From a virus: DNA of 32,333 bases. This document shows, piece after piece, positions 191 through 29,829 of this stretch (the first letter of the stretch is position 1; each line of letters begins with the position of its first letter). Location of the stretch: positions 1 to 32,333 of IMG/VR virus record IMGVR_UViG_3300005548_000026, one strand, 5' to 3'. Both the position numbers and the translations under genes were made by a program. The notes under the pieces were generated by a model. That model ran no database searches, had not been told where the DNA came from, and worked only from the letters and a program-made list of their open reading frames with translations.

Positions 191-372
191 TCCGTAAGCT
201 GTTTAAGTACCAAATTTGGTACGTAGTGTTTAGCGTATACTTCGTGTTTATGTCGTACTATAACCACAGTGTTACGTTCGGGATTCTAACAGGCGGTTAT
301 CTATCTATGGTTGGGCACCACGCTTGGATGACTTATAAGGAAAGGAAAGTCAATGCCGCAAACGATGTTTGA
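187..372 (+). CDS. Small membrane protein, two predicted helices
   Basis: This 61-residue protein starts at GTG (187), with AGGA at 174-177 as a reasonable ribosome site and a GTGA overlap with the previous stop. Two hydrophobic stretches, about residues 8-26 (aromatic-rich, YVVFSVYFVF) and 29-47 (FGILTGGYLSMVG), suggest a hairpin in the membrane with a basic N-terminus (IRKLFK) on the cytoplasmic side. The end overlaps the next gene by 20 bases. I do not recognise a family and would not assign a function. Small membrane proteins of this type are common among phage early genes. Confidence 0.6.
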   Translation: MIRKLFKYQIWYVVFSVYFVFMSYYNHSVTFGILTGGYLSMVGHHAWMTYKERKVNAANDV

Positions 373-763
373 AATGGTTAAAGAGTTCCATGAGAAGTTC
401 GGGCTAGCGGTCGGACATGGGCCTATCCCGTTTCTGCACGAAGACCTCGATAACGAAGAACTGTACACGCTTAGAGATCGTCTACACAAAGAAGAATGGA
501 AAGAGCTGCAAGACGCATGGGAAGACGAGAACCTCGTAGAGTACGCCGATGCGCTTTGTGACCTTATCTACGTGCTGTGTGGTACAGCAGTGTCGTTCGG
601 TATTGACCTCGACAAGTGCTTCCGCGAGGTTCACCTTAGCAACATGAGCAAGCTAGACGAGGACGGTACCGTTCACAAGGACGAGTACGGTAAGGTCATT
701 AAGGGCGACGGTTTCTTCCAGCCCAACCTACGCGATATCATCTACCCACAGCCTGCACCGTGA
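353..763 (+). CDS. MazG-like nucleotide pyrophosphohydrolase
   Basis: This 136-residue protein belongs by motif to the all-alpha NTP pyrophosphohydrolase superfamily (MazG / PRA-PH / dUTPase-2 type). The metal-binding signature is visible: KEEWKEL at residues 46-52 (E47, E48, E51), followed by EYADALCDLIYVLCG at 63-77 (E63, D66, D70), matching the family pattern ExxE then ExxD. Family members cleave NTPs or dNTPs to the monophosphate plus pyrophosphate, and phages use them to clean or rebalance the nucleotide pool. The substrate cannot be read from the sequence. The C-terminal tail (KDEYGKVIKG, then FFQPNL) is typical of phage versions. The ATG at 353 lies inside the previous gene, and the stop overlaps the next start (GTGA). 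The DNA polymerase nearby fits a role in DNA synthesis. Confidence 0.85.
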   Translation: MPQTMFEMVKEFHEKFGLAVGHGPIPFLHEDLDNEELYTLRDRLHKEEWKELQDAWEDENLVEYADALCDLIYVLCGTAVSFGIDLDKCFREVHLSNMSKLDEDGTVHKDEYGKVIKGDGFFQPNLRDIIYPQPAP

Positions 764-1062: not shown

Positions 1063-1282
1063 GACAGTAGAAGCCGTACAGTGCTACCTAGAAGGTGTAG
1101 GGTGGGTACTGTGGCCTACGCCAACAGGCAGACCTGCACCGCGAATTACCGATTACGAGGTTCAGGATCTTAAGCCGCGTATCTTCGAGAAGCCAAACGC
1201 GAAAGGCCAGAAGTTTTGGTACAAGCGAAATCCGTCTATGTACTGTTGGGACGTGACGTATGAAGAAGCACCCTTTAGCTGA
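1055..1282 (+). CDS. Unknown 75-residue protein
   Basis: I chose ATG 1055 over the in-frame ATG 1040 because GAAGG at 1044-1048 lies six bases upstream of it and the 1040 start has no such site. The product is aromatic and proline-rich (GVGWVLWPTPTGRPAP) and has a basic middle (KPNAKGQKFWYKRN). No family is recognised. It overlaps the previous gene by eight bases and the DNA polymerase gene by 23 bases, so it is probably co-translated with the polymerase. Confidence 0.6.
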   Translation: MAETVEAVQCYLEGVGWVLWPTPTGRPAPRITDYEVQDLKPRIFEKPNAKGQKFWYKRNPSMYCWDVTYEEAPFS

Positions 1283-3593
1283 TTGTGACGGTTGCCCGTT
1301 GCAGAAACGGGACGCCGCTTACACCACCGGCCCGGAGAACGCTTCGGTTGTGCTGGTTAGCCGTAGTCCAGGGCGTAAGGATGCCGAGAAAGGTAAGCCC
1401 TTTGCTGGCATGAGCGGCAAGGTTGTTGACTACCTACTGGAAGAGAACGGCTACAAGCGTGAACAGATCAAAACGACAAACATCGTCCTCTGCGAAACGG
1501 AAGACCCGCCGAAAGAAGCGATCCGACGGTGTAAGGCACGGTTGGATGCCGACATGGATAGCGCCGATACGATCATTGCTGCGGGTGCGGAACCGGCGCG
1601 AGAGATAGCGAAGACAAGTCTGCAAAAAGGACGGGGTATCGTACATGAGCGTGTTAGCTCTGATTTCAGGATTCAGCGAGTCATCGTCACCAACAATCCT
1701 GCTGCTGTCATTCGTGATAGCGACAACTTCCCTAACTTGGTCAGTGATTTTCGTCTTGCACTCAATCCTCCTGCGAATCCAGTCCTCCCTACTGTTGACG
1801 TTTGTGATAGTCGAAAGTCTGTACTGGCTGCTATCCGTGATATTGGTAGTAGAGGGTTTGTTGCTGCTGACCTTGAAGGTCACAGGCCACACATAGAGTG
1901 TGCTGGTTTCTCGTTTAACGAAGACCACGCTTACGTCTTCACGCGCAAGGGTATTGAGTCTACATGGCAGGAGTTCAACGATCTACTAGTTAGACGAGAT
2001 ATCGAATGGCTGTGGCACAACGGCATCTACGATGTTAAGCTGCTTAAGGACAATGATATCAATGGGCACATCGACCACGACACCTTTGCTATGTCGTACG
2101 TTCTCGATGAAAGACCAGGTACACATTCTTTGGGCTACTTACTTAGGCTTCATTGTGGTTGGCCGAATTATGAGCCTGAAGCGGTTGAAAAGTACAAGGA
2201 AACAGGAGTGCTACCTGATGATCCTTACGAACTTTACACGTACAACGGTAAAGACACAGGAGGAACGTTCCAGCTATATAATCTGCTGAAGTCGCGGGTA
2301 GTCGAAGAAGAAATGGATGACCTCGTTAAGAAGCACTACATTCCGTTCTTCAACAAACTGACGGATATCGAGCGACGGGGATTCGTTTACGATATCGAAC
2401 GTGCTTGTGATCTTAACGAGGAAGTAGTCATTCCGCTGATTCGTGACCTTACAGATGAGCTAGGGAGTATCGCCGGTGCAGAACTATACAACCCTATGTC
2501 CACTAAGCAGACAAGAGCTATTGTCTACGATACGTGGGGACTTAAACACAAACTTCGTGATAGTGGTAAGAAGAAACGGCAGACCGGTTTCGATAAAGAT
2601 GTGCGGCGCGAGATTAGAGAAGGACGATTTGACAGCAATCCACGCGCGAGAGATAAGCTCGTTGAGTTCGCTACCGTATATGATCGTTTCAGAACTATTG
2701 AGACACAGCGGGGCACCTTTATCGAGGGACTCATTAAACGAGTTCAAACCGATGGAAGACTGTACTGTGAGTTTAACCCTTGTGGTACCGTCACAGGACG
2801 GACTTCATCCCGTAACCCAAACTTTCAGAATATCACCCGAGAAGCGCGGGACGTGGTTCCGGGGATTAGAACTCTATTCCTTCCTACCCCTGGAAACGTA
2901 CTAGTTTCGGCAGACTTTTCTCAGGCAGAGCTACGAGCCATTGCAGTGCTGTCTGACTGTTCACCTCTTAAGAGCATATATACTGATAGCAGCCGTTCTC
3001 TGCACAAAGAGACAGCAGCACGGTTCTACGGTGAGAACTACACCAAAGAGGAATACGTCAAGTCTAAGAACATTAACTTCGGTGTCTGCTATCTACAGTC
3101 GGCGGAAGCGTTCTCACAGATGTACACGATGCCAGTGCAGGAAGCGAGGGATTACATTGGAACGTGGTTTAACACTTTTCCTGAGATTGCTGAATGGATT
3201 GCTGAGGTTTCTGATCGGGTAGAGAAGGAGAACGAGCTAAGGAGTCCATTCGGTGCTAAGCGACGGTTCCACCTAATCACGCCTGAGAACCTTAAGGAGT
3301 GCATCCGTGAAGGTGTCAACTTCCTACCGCAGAATACAGCCGGTCTGCTCACTATGGCGGCTATCATCGAAATCGAGGACGCCGGTATCCCGGTCATTAA
3401 CTCGGTTCACGATTCTATTGTGGTTGACGTACCTGAAGACGAGGTAAACGACGTTGCCGCCACCATGAAGACTATCATGGAACGACAGGCTTACGACAAG
3501 CTAGGGTGGGAACTGCCCTTTAAGGTCGATATCAGCGTTGGCGAGAATTGGGGCGAACTTGAAGAAATGGAGGTTATCCCTCTTGCCGCGTGA
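1260..3593 (+). CDS. Family A DNA polymerase with N-terminal uracil-DNA-glycosylase-like domain
   Basis: This is the phage replicative polymerase, 777 residues. Residues 1-165 resemble a family 4/5 uracil-DNA glycosylase: Fe-S type cysteines C9 and C12 (CDGCP), C78 and C91, a KGKPFAGMSG segment at 44-53, and TNNPAAVIRD at 144-153. The usual catalytic GE(A/G)PG is SRSPG here (34-38), and the usual His-Pro of motif 2 is Asn-Pro (146-147). The 3'-5' exonuclease domain (about 195-345) keeps its acidic set: DLE at 204-206, HNGIYD with N254 and D258, and Y328/D332. The polymerase domain shows TGRTSSRNPNFQNI (512-525), motif A DFSQAELR (552-559), motif B KNINFG (603-608) and motif C VHDS (716-719). 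There is no 5' nuclease domain. ATG 1260 is chosen because it retains the CxxC; GGGA lies about nine bases upstream. UDG-like plus PolA fusions occur in other phages, I believe including SPO1. Confidence 0.93.
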   Translation: MKKHPLADCDGCPLQKRDAAYTTGPENASVVLVSRSPGRKDAEKGKPFAGMSGKVVDYLLEENGYKREQIKTTNIVLCETEDPPKEAIRRCKARLDADMDSADTIIAAGAEPAREIAKTSLQKGRGIVHERVSSDFRIQRVIVTNNPAAVIRDSDNFPNLVSDFRLALNPPANPVLPTVDVCDSRKSVLAAIRDIGSRGFVAADLEGHRPHIECAGFSFNEDHAYVFTRKGIESTWQEFNDLLVRRDIEWLWHNGIYDVKLLKDNDINGHIDHDTFAMSYVLDERPGTHSLGYLLRLHCGWPNYEPEAVEKYKETGVLPDDPYELYTYNGKDTGGTFQLYNLLKSRVVEEEMDDLVKKHYIPFFNKLTDIERRGFVYDIERACDLNEEVVIPLIRDLTDELGSIAGAELYNPMSTKQTRAIVYDTWGLKHKLRDSGKKKRQTGFDKDVRREIREGRFDSNPRARDKLVEFATVYDRFRTIETQRGTFIEGLIKRVQTDGRLYCEFNPCGTVTGRTSSRNPNFQNITREARDVVPGIRTLFLPTPGNVLVSADFSQAELRAIAVLSDCSPLKSIYTDSSRSLHKETAARFYGENYTKEEYVKSKNINFGVCYLQSAEAFSQMYTMPVQEARDYIGTWFNTFPEIAEWIAEVSDRVEKENELRSPFGAKRRFHLITPENLKECIREGVNFLPQNTAGLLTMAAIIEIEDAGIPVINSVHDSIVVDVPEDEVNDVAATMKTIMERQAYDKLGWELPFKVDISVGENWGELEEMEVIPLAA

Positions 3594-26480: not shown

Positions 26481-26803
26481 GGGTTGACCGAGAACTCAAA
26501 CGGGCCGACGATCGGCGTGTCGAGGTTAGAGGTAAAACGCAAGCGAATCTCGTATCGACCTGTAGCCCAGTTACCAGGCATACTAGTATCAACAAGGCAA
26601 CCAGCTCTCATAGGCTTGTCAAGATAGGTCTGGATCGCAGACCAGTTCTGCATGAGAGTACCGGTGCGCTTCGCGTTCACTTTGAATTCAGCGCCAGCCA
26701 AACTAAGATCAGAGAGATTATTAAGAGCATCGTCCAGGTCAATTAGCAGTGTCTCCTTACTGCCGACGAGAACGTCGATGACCATTCCGGTGTTAACTGT
26801 CAT
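26477..26803 (-). CDS. Small beta-rich protein between repeat adhesin and terminase
   Basis: This 108-residue protein has an Ig-like or BppU-N-like pattern: strands VIDVLVGSKETLLIDL and GAEFKVNAKRTG, then MRAGCLVDT, a Pro/Gly turn (SMPGNWATG), YEIRLRFTSN and GPFEFSVNP. The phrase in which a small load or value range is given, then a W-x-x-G-x-Y strand, is common in domains at the base of phage fibers. It overlaps both neighbours by four bases. It may be an adaptor for the repeat adhesin; this is inference. Confidence 0.6.
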   Translation of the reverse strand: MTVNTGMVIDVLVGSKETLLIDLDDALNNLSDLSLAGAEFKVNAKRTGTLMQNWSAIQTYLDKPMRAGCLVDTSMPGNWATGRYEIRLRFTSNLDTPIVGPFEFSVNP

Positions 26804-29800
26804 ACGTGCATCAACTCCTCGTAAGGCATTGTGATGACACCTTCGTACCTGCCAAAGACACTAGCATACCAGCGGCGCGTCATACTAACCGTAGTCCACC
26901 GTTTGAACATAACGCCTGTGACCGAGAACAGGATGACCACTCGGATATCGACGTACACGGTAGCTGCGTCCTGTTGAAGCGAAGTTTGGTACTCGTCACC
27001 ACTAGGAATGATACCGAAGTTAACTGTACTTGCATCAGTCCAAACGGCGTTCTCGTTGCTAGTCGGCGTTAGAACAATACCAACTGTTCCAGTGTCTCCG
27101 ACGGCTGTTTGGATTTCTGTACCTGAAGGTACGATATCGACGTAGGCTGTGTCGCTGTCAACACTCGTTCTAGCCTCTGTAGCACTTGGGGCGATGAGAA
27201 CGCTAACAGTGTCGCTGTCGGTATACGCTGCGATATCCGTTGTTGTCGGAGTGATTCGTAGAACAACGGTAGCTGCATCAACTGCCTCCTGAACTTCTAT
27301 GGTGGTGATCGGAGTGATAAGGACACGTACCGTGTCGGAGTCGGTGTACCCGACAGCCGGAATATACACGTCACTTCCGCTTGGCTGGATATCGACGTAG
27401 ATGCTGTCGCTATCGTCACTTGTCCGTTGCTCAGTACCGCTAGGTGAGAGCGAGACTGTGACCGTAGCACTATCAACGAAGATAGCAACATCGGTTGCGC
27501 TAGGCGTAATAAGTACGTAGACTGTATTACTATCGACCCATTGCGCCGTGTCAGTTGCTGACGGAGTAAGAAGGATATAGACCTCTGCGTTGTCACCTGG
27601 CTGAGCCTGACTCTCCTGCGCCGATGCATCAATATCGACGTAAACAGTTGCAGAGTCAACAAACACCGCAACATCGCTGCTAGACGGTGTAATCAGTACG
27701 TACACGGTATTGCTGTCAACGTACTGAGCCGTGTCTGTACTAGATACAGTGATAAGCACAGGGACGGTCGCGCTCTCAGTGAAAGCTGCGATATCGCTGG
27801 TAGACGGGGAAATCCCAACGATAACCGTCCCTGTGTCTGTGTACTGAGCAATGTCTGACGTAGCCACACTGATATCGACATACACCGTGTTTGCGTCAGT
27901 ATGCTCAATGAACTCTGTACCGCTAGGGATGATATCAACGTAGACTGTCGCGCTCTCAACGGCGACGATGATATCGCTGCCGGAAGGCGTAATCAGCACG
28001 TACACCGTATTGGCTTCAACAGCTTGGATTGTGTCGGAGCCGGAAGGCGTGATATCGACGTAGGGTGTGTTGGCGTCAGTAAACTGTGCGGTGTCGCTGC
28101 CAGAAGGTGTAAGGGTAACCAGTACGGTAGCGGCGTCAACGAACTGAGCAATGTCGGAGCCGCTTGGTGTAATCAAAACCGCCACAGTGTTGCTATCTGT
28201 GATTTCGCGGTGTTCGTCGGTAGTGATCGGTTGAATGTCTACATACACCGTAGCACTCTCTACCGCCTGTATCGTGTCAGTAGCAGAGGGGGTCACCACG
28301 ACCGTCACAGTGCCGCTATCCGTGAATATCGCAACATCAGTGGATGACGTGGTGATATCCACATAGACGCTATTCGTATCGGATGACTCCCTCTGCTCTG
28401 TTCCAGACGGCGTAATCAACACAGGCACCGTAGCACTGTCAACGAACTGTGCTGTGTCAGTCGCCGAAGCAAGGATTAGCACTGTAATGGTTGCAGCGTC
28501 GAAACTCTCTCTAATGTCACTACCACTAACGTCGAGGTCAACGTACACAGTCGCGCTGTCTACAAACTGCGCGATATCTGTGCCGCTGGCCTGCAAGTCC
28601 ACCAAAACGGTGTCAGCGTCCGAAGACTCTCTATTCTCGGTACCGGAAGCCTGAAGATCGACATACACAGTATTACTGTCTACGAAGTCAGCAACGTCAG
28701 TACCACTAGGTGTGATATCGACGATTACTGTGGCGCTCTCGACCGCCTGGATGGTATCTGAGCCGCTTGGCTGGATATCGACGTAAACGGTACTACTGTC
28801 TACAAACTGTGCAATGTCGCTACCGCTCGGAGTGATATCAACAGTCACAGTGTCGCTATCGACGAACTGTGCGATATCACTGCTACTGACCTGAATATCA
28901 ATATATACAGTAGCACTGTCAGTGCTCTCACGCTGCTCAGTACCACTACCTTGCAAATCGACCAGCACTGTGGCTGAGTCGGTATAAGCGATACCACCAG
29001 CGGTGTAGGTGTCAGAGCCAGATGGAGTGATGAGAACATAGGGCGTATTACTGTCAACGAATTCCGCAGATTCGGTAAGCTCATCTATACGGAAGTTGTC
29101 GATTAGAGCAGAAAAGCCCTTATTCTCGATACCTGCATATCCTCCTGCATAGGTGCTATCTACAACGGTGCCTAGCAACGTAGGTGTGCCACTACGTACT
29201 CTCCATATTTGGAAAGTATTATCGTGGGCTACGACCCTAACAGTATCGCCAGAGGTATAGTCACCAGCACCACCACTGATAAGTGTATTAATGACGCTGT
29301 TGGTAACAGACCCGAATAGCCAACTACCGCCAGGACTGACTCTTAATCCGTAACCGTCCCATGAACCTGTGGGTGGGCCGCTACCACCTGTAGCTCTAGC
29401 TCTGACGTTAAGCCATGATTCATCAGTACCTGTTGGAACAGCGAAAAGAAGAAACTCAGAACTGTAGTCGTAGAGAAAACCAGGCGTATCCCAATAACCG
29501 CCTTCGTAACCAGAGATAGCACCAGCAATCTGTCCTGACGTGATAGAAAGCTGTGGATCACCAAAAGCTGCGGGCCACGTAGTACCAATCGGGTTACGGT
29601 TGAAATCGTCCGTGTATACGACCGTAGGTGTGACAACCGTAATGTCGATGGTAACCGTCGCAGCGTCGGTACTCTCTGCACCAGCAGGTGTCGGCGCGAT
29701 TTCAAAGTACGGAAGGAGTCGGTAGTCATCGCTGATAAACCGCAAACGCGGCTGTTCACGAGACAGACCAGTAAAACCACCACGAGGAAAGTCGCGGCGT

Positions 29801-29829
29801 TCTTCCGTTAGGACTAACCCTACTGGCAT
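26800..29829 (-). CDS. Giant repeat adhesin with internal lectin domain
   Basis: In this 1009-residue protein, residues 1-45 form a start region with many Arg and Pro. A first copy of the repeat lies at about 51-66 (AESTDAATVTIDITVV). A jelly-roll lectin domain follows at 72-250: FNRNPIGTTWPAAFGDPQ, ESWLNVRARATGG, GYGLRVSPGGSWLFGS, VRVVAHDNTFQIWRV, IENKGFSALIDNFRID. About 35 repeats of 20 residues (typical unit SGSDIAQFVDSATVYVDITP) occupy 252-964. The last 45 residues are basic and aromatic (VTGVMFKRWTTVSMTRRWYA). The repeats look like stacked short beta units making an extended stalk. There is no signal peptide or LPxTG. Its position among tail genes suggests a virion fiber. No exact family is recognised. 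Confidence 0.75.
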   Translation of the reverse strand: MPVGLVLTEERRDFPRGGFTGLSREQPRLRFISDDYRLLPYFEIAPTPAGAESTDAATVTIDITVVTPTVVYTDDFNRNPIGTTWPAAFGDPQLSITSGQIAGAISGYEGGYWDTPGFLYDYSSEFLLFAVPTGTDESWLNVRARATGGSGPPTGSWDGYGLRVSPGGSWLFGSVTNSVINTLISGGAGDYTSGDTVRVVAHDNTFQIWRVRSGTPTLLGTVVDSTYAGGYAGIENKGFSALIDNFRIDELTESAEFVDSNTPYVLITPSGSDTYTAGGIAYTDSATVLVDLQGSGTEQRESTDSATVYIDIQVSSSDIAQFVDSDTVTVDITPSGSDIAQFVDSSTVYVDIQPSGSDTIQAVESATVIVDITPSGTDVADFVDSNTVYVDLQASGTENRESSDADTVLVDLQASGTDIAQFVDSATVYVDLDVSGSDIRESFDAATITVLILASATDTAQFVDSATVPVLITPSGTEQRESSDTNSVYVDITTSSTDVAIFTDSGTVTVVVTPSATDTIQAVESATVYVDIQPITTDEHREITDSNTVAVLITPSGSDIAQFVDAATVLVTLTPSGSDTAQFTDANTPYVDITPSGSDTIQAVEANTVYVLITPSGSDIIVAVESATVYVDIIPSGTEFIEHTDANTVYVDISVATSDIAQYTDTGTVIVGISPSTSDIAAFTESATVPVLITVSSTDTAQYVDSNTVYVLITPSSSDVAVFVDSATVYVDIDASAQESQAQPGDNAEVYILLTPSATDTAQWVDSNTVYVLITPSATDVAIFVDSATVTVSLSPSGTEQRTSDDSDSIYVDIQPSGSDVYIPAVGYTDSDTVRVLITPITTIEVQEAVDAATVVLRITPTTTDIAAYTDSDTVSVLIAPSATEARTSVDSDTAYVDIVPSGTEIQTAVGDTGTVGIVLTPTSNENAVWTDASTVNFGIIPSGDEYQTSLQQDAATVYVDIRVVILFSVTGVMFKRWTTVSMTRRWYASVFGRYEGVITMPYEELMHV
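26938..29076 (-). repeat. About 35 tandem 60-base coding repeats
   Basis: The unit is 20 residues (60 bases): S-G-(S/T)-(D/E), five variable, (D/E)-(S/A)-x-T-V-x-V-x-I-x-P. Some copies have 21, 24 or 25 residues (for example SGSDVYIPAVGYTDSDTVRV), always in frame. Peptide similarity is high but the DNA is diversified by synonymous codons: IAQFVDS is coded differently at 28855-28875 and 28555-28575 in four of seven codons. Confidence 0.85.

Follow-up and report, generated by a model that had tools for sequence, protein, structure and literature searches.

Many phage family A DNA polymerases carry a UDG-like domain, and UDG-PolA fusions as such are already known, both from Pfam annotation and from the Thermus phage phiLo (9QHS); what is new here is a variant characterised by Arg35, Glu111 and Asn146 (R/E/N). 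In the literature searched, we found neither a paper explaining UDG-like domains on phage family A polymerases nor one on 9QHS or on phage UDG-polymerases. The fusions of phiLo, StAshley, vir526, LysYB1, RHph and SM1 resemble the protein described here in having an N-terminal UDG-like domain on a PolA-type polymerase, but those examined keep Glu/Asp in motif 1 and, with the exception of SM1, which lacks it, His in motif 2. Archaeal family B polymerases have a uracil read-ahead pocket, in which uracil is recognised without being cut. The likeness to that system is confined to the role proposed here, in which a replicative polymerase would recognise uracil and leave it uncut; the polymerase family and the pocket are unrelated, and stalling is a property of the archaeal enzyme. 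A UDG fold also forms part of a viral replication machine in the case of vaccinia D4 (PMC10253040), a likeness of role and not of sequence, as D4 is a family 1 UDG, a separate protein and catalytically active.

Family-4 UDGs (UDGa; 1UI0, 4ZBX, 1VK2) combine four Cys for a 4Fe-4S cluster with a catalytic Glu in motif 1 (GE(A/G)PG), a His-Pro in motif 2, and a motif 3 Asn and a Phe that read and stack on the base. In family-2 Mug, the natural motif 2 residue is Asn, which is compatible with catalysis there. In UdgX of Mycobacterium smegmatis (6AIL, 6AJO), E52 activates the nucleophile, R184 touches the DNA backbone, F65 stacks on the uracil, and N91 and H178 hydrogen-bond the base (PMC10359453, PMC10776899). 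The UdgX variant E52A is weak, not dead; H178A, N91A and F65A are dead, and F65A is also unfolded (PMC10776899).

The polymerase gene and its surroundings

The window, by which we mean the whole stretch of DNA analysed, is a 32.3-kb virus record originating from a soil phage. The 57,462-base record IMGVR_UViG_3300005466_000007 (G001) shares the gene order of the window and encodes a polymerase identical to the one described here. The polymerase, its domains and its upstream neighbour are located as follows:

353..763, + strand: MazG/PRA-PH-like nucleotide pyrophosphohydrolase (PF01503, phrog_671), a replication-module neighbour just upstream of the polymerase
1260..3593, + strand: family A DNA polymerase with N-terminal UDG-like domain, 777 aa (ORF, Pfam, full-length model with pLDDT 93.3 and pTM 0.89)
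1260..1769, + strand: UDG-like domain, residues 1-170 (PF03167, domain model, Foldseek matches to UdgX and family-4 UDG)
1791..2309, + strand: 3'-5' exonuclease domain, D204, E206, D258, Y328 and D332 all kept (PF01612 just under cut-off)
2397..3569, + strand: polymerase domain, D552, E557, K603 and H717-D718 kept (PF00476, 203.9 bits)

UDG, exonuclease and polymerase thus follow each other within one ORF, both by Pfam and in the full-length model, which is the layout of a UDG-PolA fusion. The five exonuclease residues are invariant in the 42 aligned relatives (42/42), as are D552, E557, K603 and D718 of the polymerase, with H717 present in 39/42. Because these catalytic residues are kept, both the exonuclease and the polymerase look intact, and the 777-aa ORF has the catalytic Asp/Glu and the exonuclease acids of a proofreading phage family A polymerase. 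The start codon of the polymerase (1260) overlaps an upstream ORF (1040-1282) by 23 bases (1260-1282), so that the two may be translationally coupled. Elsewhere in the window, a gene on the minus strand (26800-29829) that adjoins the terminase gene encodes a 1009-aa protein whose best PHROG match, at E 4e-4, is not meaningful.

A predicted family-4 fold with an altered catalytic pair

The original prediction had placed a UDG-like domain on the DNA polymerase, and this assignment is borne out by PF03167, which covers residues 23-155 with 59.5 bits against a cut-off of 24.3, by a profile search in which solved family-4 UDGs and UdgX were matched down to E 2.8e-21, and by Foldseek. The predicted model of residues 1-170, with a pLDDT of 92 and a pTM of 0.88, has the UDG alpha/beta fold, and UdgX (TM about 0.8) and family-4 UDGs rank as its best matches (E about 1e-13, TM 0.74-0.83 overall); the expectation that the domain still folds therefore agrees with the modelling. 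The family-4 model TIGR00758 scores 74.9 bits (E 6e-21), below its curated cut-off of 125.3, which fits a diverged family-4 member. The phiLo protein 9QHS is matched by the fold of the domain and weakly by sequence; when the full-length model was used, the best 50 matches listed comprised only Klenow-type and Pol theta chains, without 9QHS. The full-length model is confident throughout, and its confidence points to a fixed position of the UDG-like domain on the polymerase, not a loose tether.

The cysteines, SRSPG and N146-P147 named in the original prediction are all found exactly in the ORF translation, and the residues that define the domain are the following:

1284..1295, + strand: C9 and C12 (CDGC), Fe-S ligands, in 84/85 non-redundant relatives, which are all those covering the stretch
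1359..1373, + strand: motif 1, S34-R35-S36-P37-G38 where GE(A/G)PG is expected, with R35 at the catalytic Glu site (UdgX E52)
1401..1403, + strand: F48, uracil-stacking position (UdgX F65), kept, 55/56 in the clade
1479..1481, + strand: N74, uracil-reading Asn of motif 3 (UdgX N91), kept, 85/85
1491..1493, + strand: C78, Fe-S ligand, 85/85 relatives
1530..1532, + strand: C91, Fe-S ligand, 85/85 relatives
1590..1592, + strand: E111, a clade-specific new acid, 56/56 in the clade; Thr, Ser, Phe and others in the sister clade
1695..1700, + strand: motif 2, N146-P147 (NNP) in place of His-Pro (UdgX H178), Asn in 55/56 and Thr in 1/56
1713..1715, + strand: R152, aligning with UdgX R184 (DNA-phosphate contact), R/K in 46/56, Tyr in 9 and His in 1

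The domain thus shares with family-4 UDGs the fold, the four Cys of the 4Fe-4S cluster, the stacking Phe and reading Asn, and a G(R/K)PF segment. It differs from them in the replacement of the motif 1 Glu by Arg and of the motif 2 His by Asn, in having Leu77 where cellular enzymes have a Lys after the motif 3 Asn, in the new Glu at 111, and in being fused to PolA. Although UdgX is a top structural match alongside family 4, the domain has neither GEQPG nor the KRRIH R-loop nor the crosslinking His109, and the profile alignment places no insertion and no His there. E111 lies two positions past the invariant G109 and aligns with Thr, Arg or Val of cellular UDGs; UdgX A141, which our analysis places beside it, is among the DNA backbone contacts (PMC10359453). 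The original prediction did not include E111, an acid that occurs solely in combination with R35 and N146. It had named a predicted structure in which other acidic and His residues occupy the active site as an outcome that would speak against it, and the new E111 accompanying R35 and N146 touches on this in part.

Distribution of the R/E/N set among phages

Scans of viral contigs yielded 94 distinct domains covering most of the UDG-like domain; in an earlier set of 66 distinct frames, most were of PolA length, and the shorter ones were mainly cut by contig or locus ends. R35/E111/N146 is present in 63 of the 94, one has R and E with Thr146, one has E and N but is truncated at 35, and 29 combine Glu35 or Gln35 with His146 and lack Glu111; no intermediates (R with H, or E with N) were found among these 94 distinct domains. 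In the non-redundant R class (n=56, lowest pairwise identity 38%), R35, E111 and N74 are present in 56/56, N146 and F48 in 55/56, and position 41 is always Asp or Glu (56/56). The sister clade has Glu at 35 (Gln in two) and His146 in 28/28. The columns that switch between the two clades include 34-36, 108, 111, 145 and 146; F48, N74, G109, R125, D163 and the four Cys are common to both.

In a tree built from the polymerase part alone, without the UDG, the R class, with 27 rows, falls on one side of a single branch supported at 99/99; the E/H class is grouped in the same manner. As the R class forms one clade in this tree, the swap to R/E/N is most simply explained as having happened once, in the ancestor of the phage clade. 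Two observations on the O-helix of the polymerase domain may be added (window 3054-3092, residues 599-611). At residue 599, the counterpart of Klenow R754, 19/27 R/E/N sequences have Tyr and 13/15 sister-clade sequences have Arg. At residue 607 (Klenow F762), Phe is present in 27/27 R/E/N sequences, and Tyr predominates in the sister clade.

The dN/dS of the domain ranges from 0.03 to 0.30 in close pairs, similar to that of the exonuclease, a rough estimate in which several dS values are high. The active-site-loop columns, picked by the analyst from known UDG motifs, have a mean majority fraction of 0.90 versus 0.61 for the rest of the domain, and 0 of 20,000 random column sets were as conserved. 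Judged from the sequences, the R/E/N set is real, selected and clade-specific, and not a sign of decay. The original prediction had raised the question of whether the substitutions are general among phage UDG-PolA fusions; the alignment confines them to one clade, and a general trait was rejected, since the acid persists in the sister clade and in the named phages checked, as does the His in all of these but SM1. A short-peptide-pattern scan of 84,980 species genomes, which may miss relatives, found none in bacteria or prophages.

In SP-15, the N-terminus of PolA (L311:554-1303) is UDG-like and contains GESPG and HPG but no Fe-S cysteines, the opposite of the clade of the window, and SP-15 also encodes a stand-alone family-4-like UDG. 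Base-modification genes adjoin the polymerase in several of the named UDG-PolA phages: genes annotated as 'pyrimidine hmase synthase', together with thymidylate synthase, are present in the Manatee isolate ctfzr933 and in Yersinia P744, and 7-deazaguanine synthesis in StAshley and BSTP12. In those named phages, the fused UDG-like domain may be linked to modified DNA. For the R/E/N clade, a link with thymine or uracil modification was rejected, as neither thymidylate synthase nor dUTPase was found in 21 clade records; genes that put uracil or a modified base into DNA were likewise not found in the sampled genomes and early genes. A deoxynucleoside monophosphate kinase gene lies further upstream in G001 (L106:16809-17393), and the neighbours are patchy in the clade, this kinase being present in 7 records and the MazG-like protein in 4.

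Possible roles of the fused domain

It seems to us an even call that a single remodelling, in the ancestor of the clade, turned an N-terminal family-4 UDG into a non-excising reader of bases or DNA that stays firmly attached to the proofreading replicative polymerase of family A. The catalytic Glu and His would have given way to Arg and Asn, coupled to the new Glu at 111, while F48 for stacking, N74 for reading, the acid at 41 and most DNA-phosphate contacts (R152) would have been retained. Since both residues that drive cleavage are replaced and those that recognise uracil are kept, the domain has likely lost glycosidic cleavage. As the single-stranded template moves past the domain, a base that is unpaired or flipped out, whether uracil or something like it, would be held there but not excised; an abasic template site just in front of the polymerase, a dangerous lesion, would thus be avoided. 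The charge of E111, or of a backbone phosphate at the mouth of the pocket, could be balanced by R35; the strict R35/E111 pairing suggests that the two form a salt bridge or act jointly at that position. The binding of a base and any signal to the polymerase are what we infer from this arrangement, and the analogy with the read-ahead pocket, a uracil sensor that stalls the polymerase, is possible. Each of 20 related records has one UDG domain only and no second one was found in them, so in those 20 the fused domain is not backed up by a second family-4-like UDG.

The original prediction of a folded, non-cutting binder is therefore supported in part, as regards the predicted fold, the Cys, the retained uracil-binding Phe and Asn and the fixed replacement of both catalytic side chains; loss of cleavage is a likely consequence. 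The change of His to Asn alone is no proof of it, as Mug works with Asn at motif 2. The same applies to the other replacement, as UdgX E52A is partly active (PMC10776899). It should also be noted that R152 is Tyr in 9/56, so that the holding of DNA may differ in part of the clade.

Unlikely, though deserving serious weight, is a purely architectural or clamp role, in which the domain would bind the template backbone or pack on the exonuclease and polymerase, and the pocket would be shut by an R35-E111 salt bridge with no base being read. The confidence of the full-length model (pTM 0.89) would agree with this, the perfect R35/E111 pairing is what a buried salt bridge would produce, and the UDG D4 of vaccinia doubles as a processivity factor (PMC10253040); however, a plugged pocket needs no fixed F48 (55/56), N74 (56/56) or acid at 41.

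Improbable in our judgement is that the domain is still a working glycosylase whose chemistry or substrate has changed, so that it would act on uracil or on a modified base; N146 would then serve as in Mug, and E111 or another residue would stand in for the motif 1 acid. E111 is indeed a new fixed acid, Mug has its Asn at motif 2, and base-modification genes occur in some named UDG-PolA phages. Against this, an Arg facing the cationic sugar should disfavour cleavage, and the clade genomes tested yielded no thymidylate synthase or dUTPase genes. The UdgX mutants bear on both sides, since E52A is not dead but H178A is (PMC10776899).

That the domain is a relic kept for polymerase folding alone, its pocket having no selected function, is very hard to credit: other phage fusions do show decayed features (SP-15 PolA without Fe-S cysteines, SM1 without the motif 2 His), but here drift was rejected because the new pocket residues are fixed across the 56 sequences, down to 38% identity, and the pocket loops are the most conserved part.

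A bolder form of the non-excising reader, which we put forward tentatively and consider doubtful, is that a family A polymerase disarmed its fused uracil glycosylase into a non-cutting base-reading pocket of its own. This pocket would parallel the read-ahead sensor of archaeal family B with an independent origin, and an Arg-Glu switch might tune it to a signal or a base that is not simply uracil. The R/E/N clade, in which the pocket and the Fe-S Cys are kept and the catalytic pair is swapped, and its sister clade with the old set form a testable pair, by which it can be asked whether the contribution of the domain to replication lies in the reading or holding of DNA, and not in repair. If uracil is sensed without being cut, a check for uracil in the template would have been invented in family A independently of archaeal family B.
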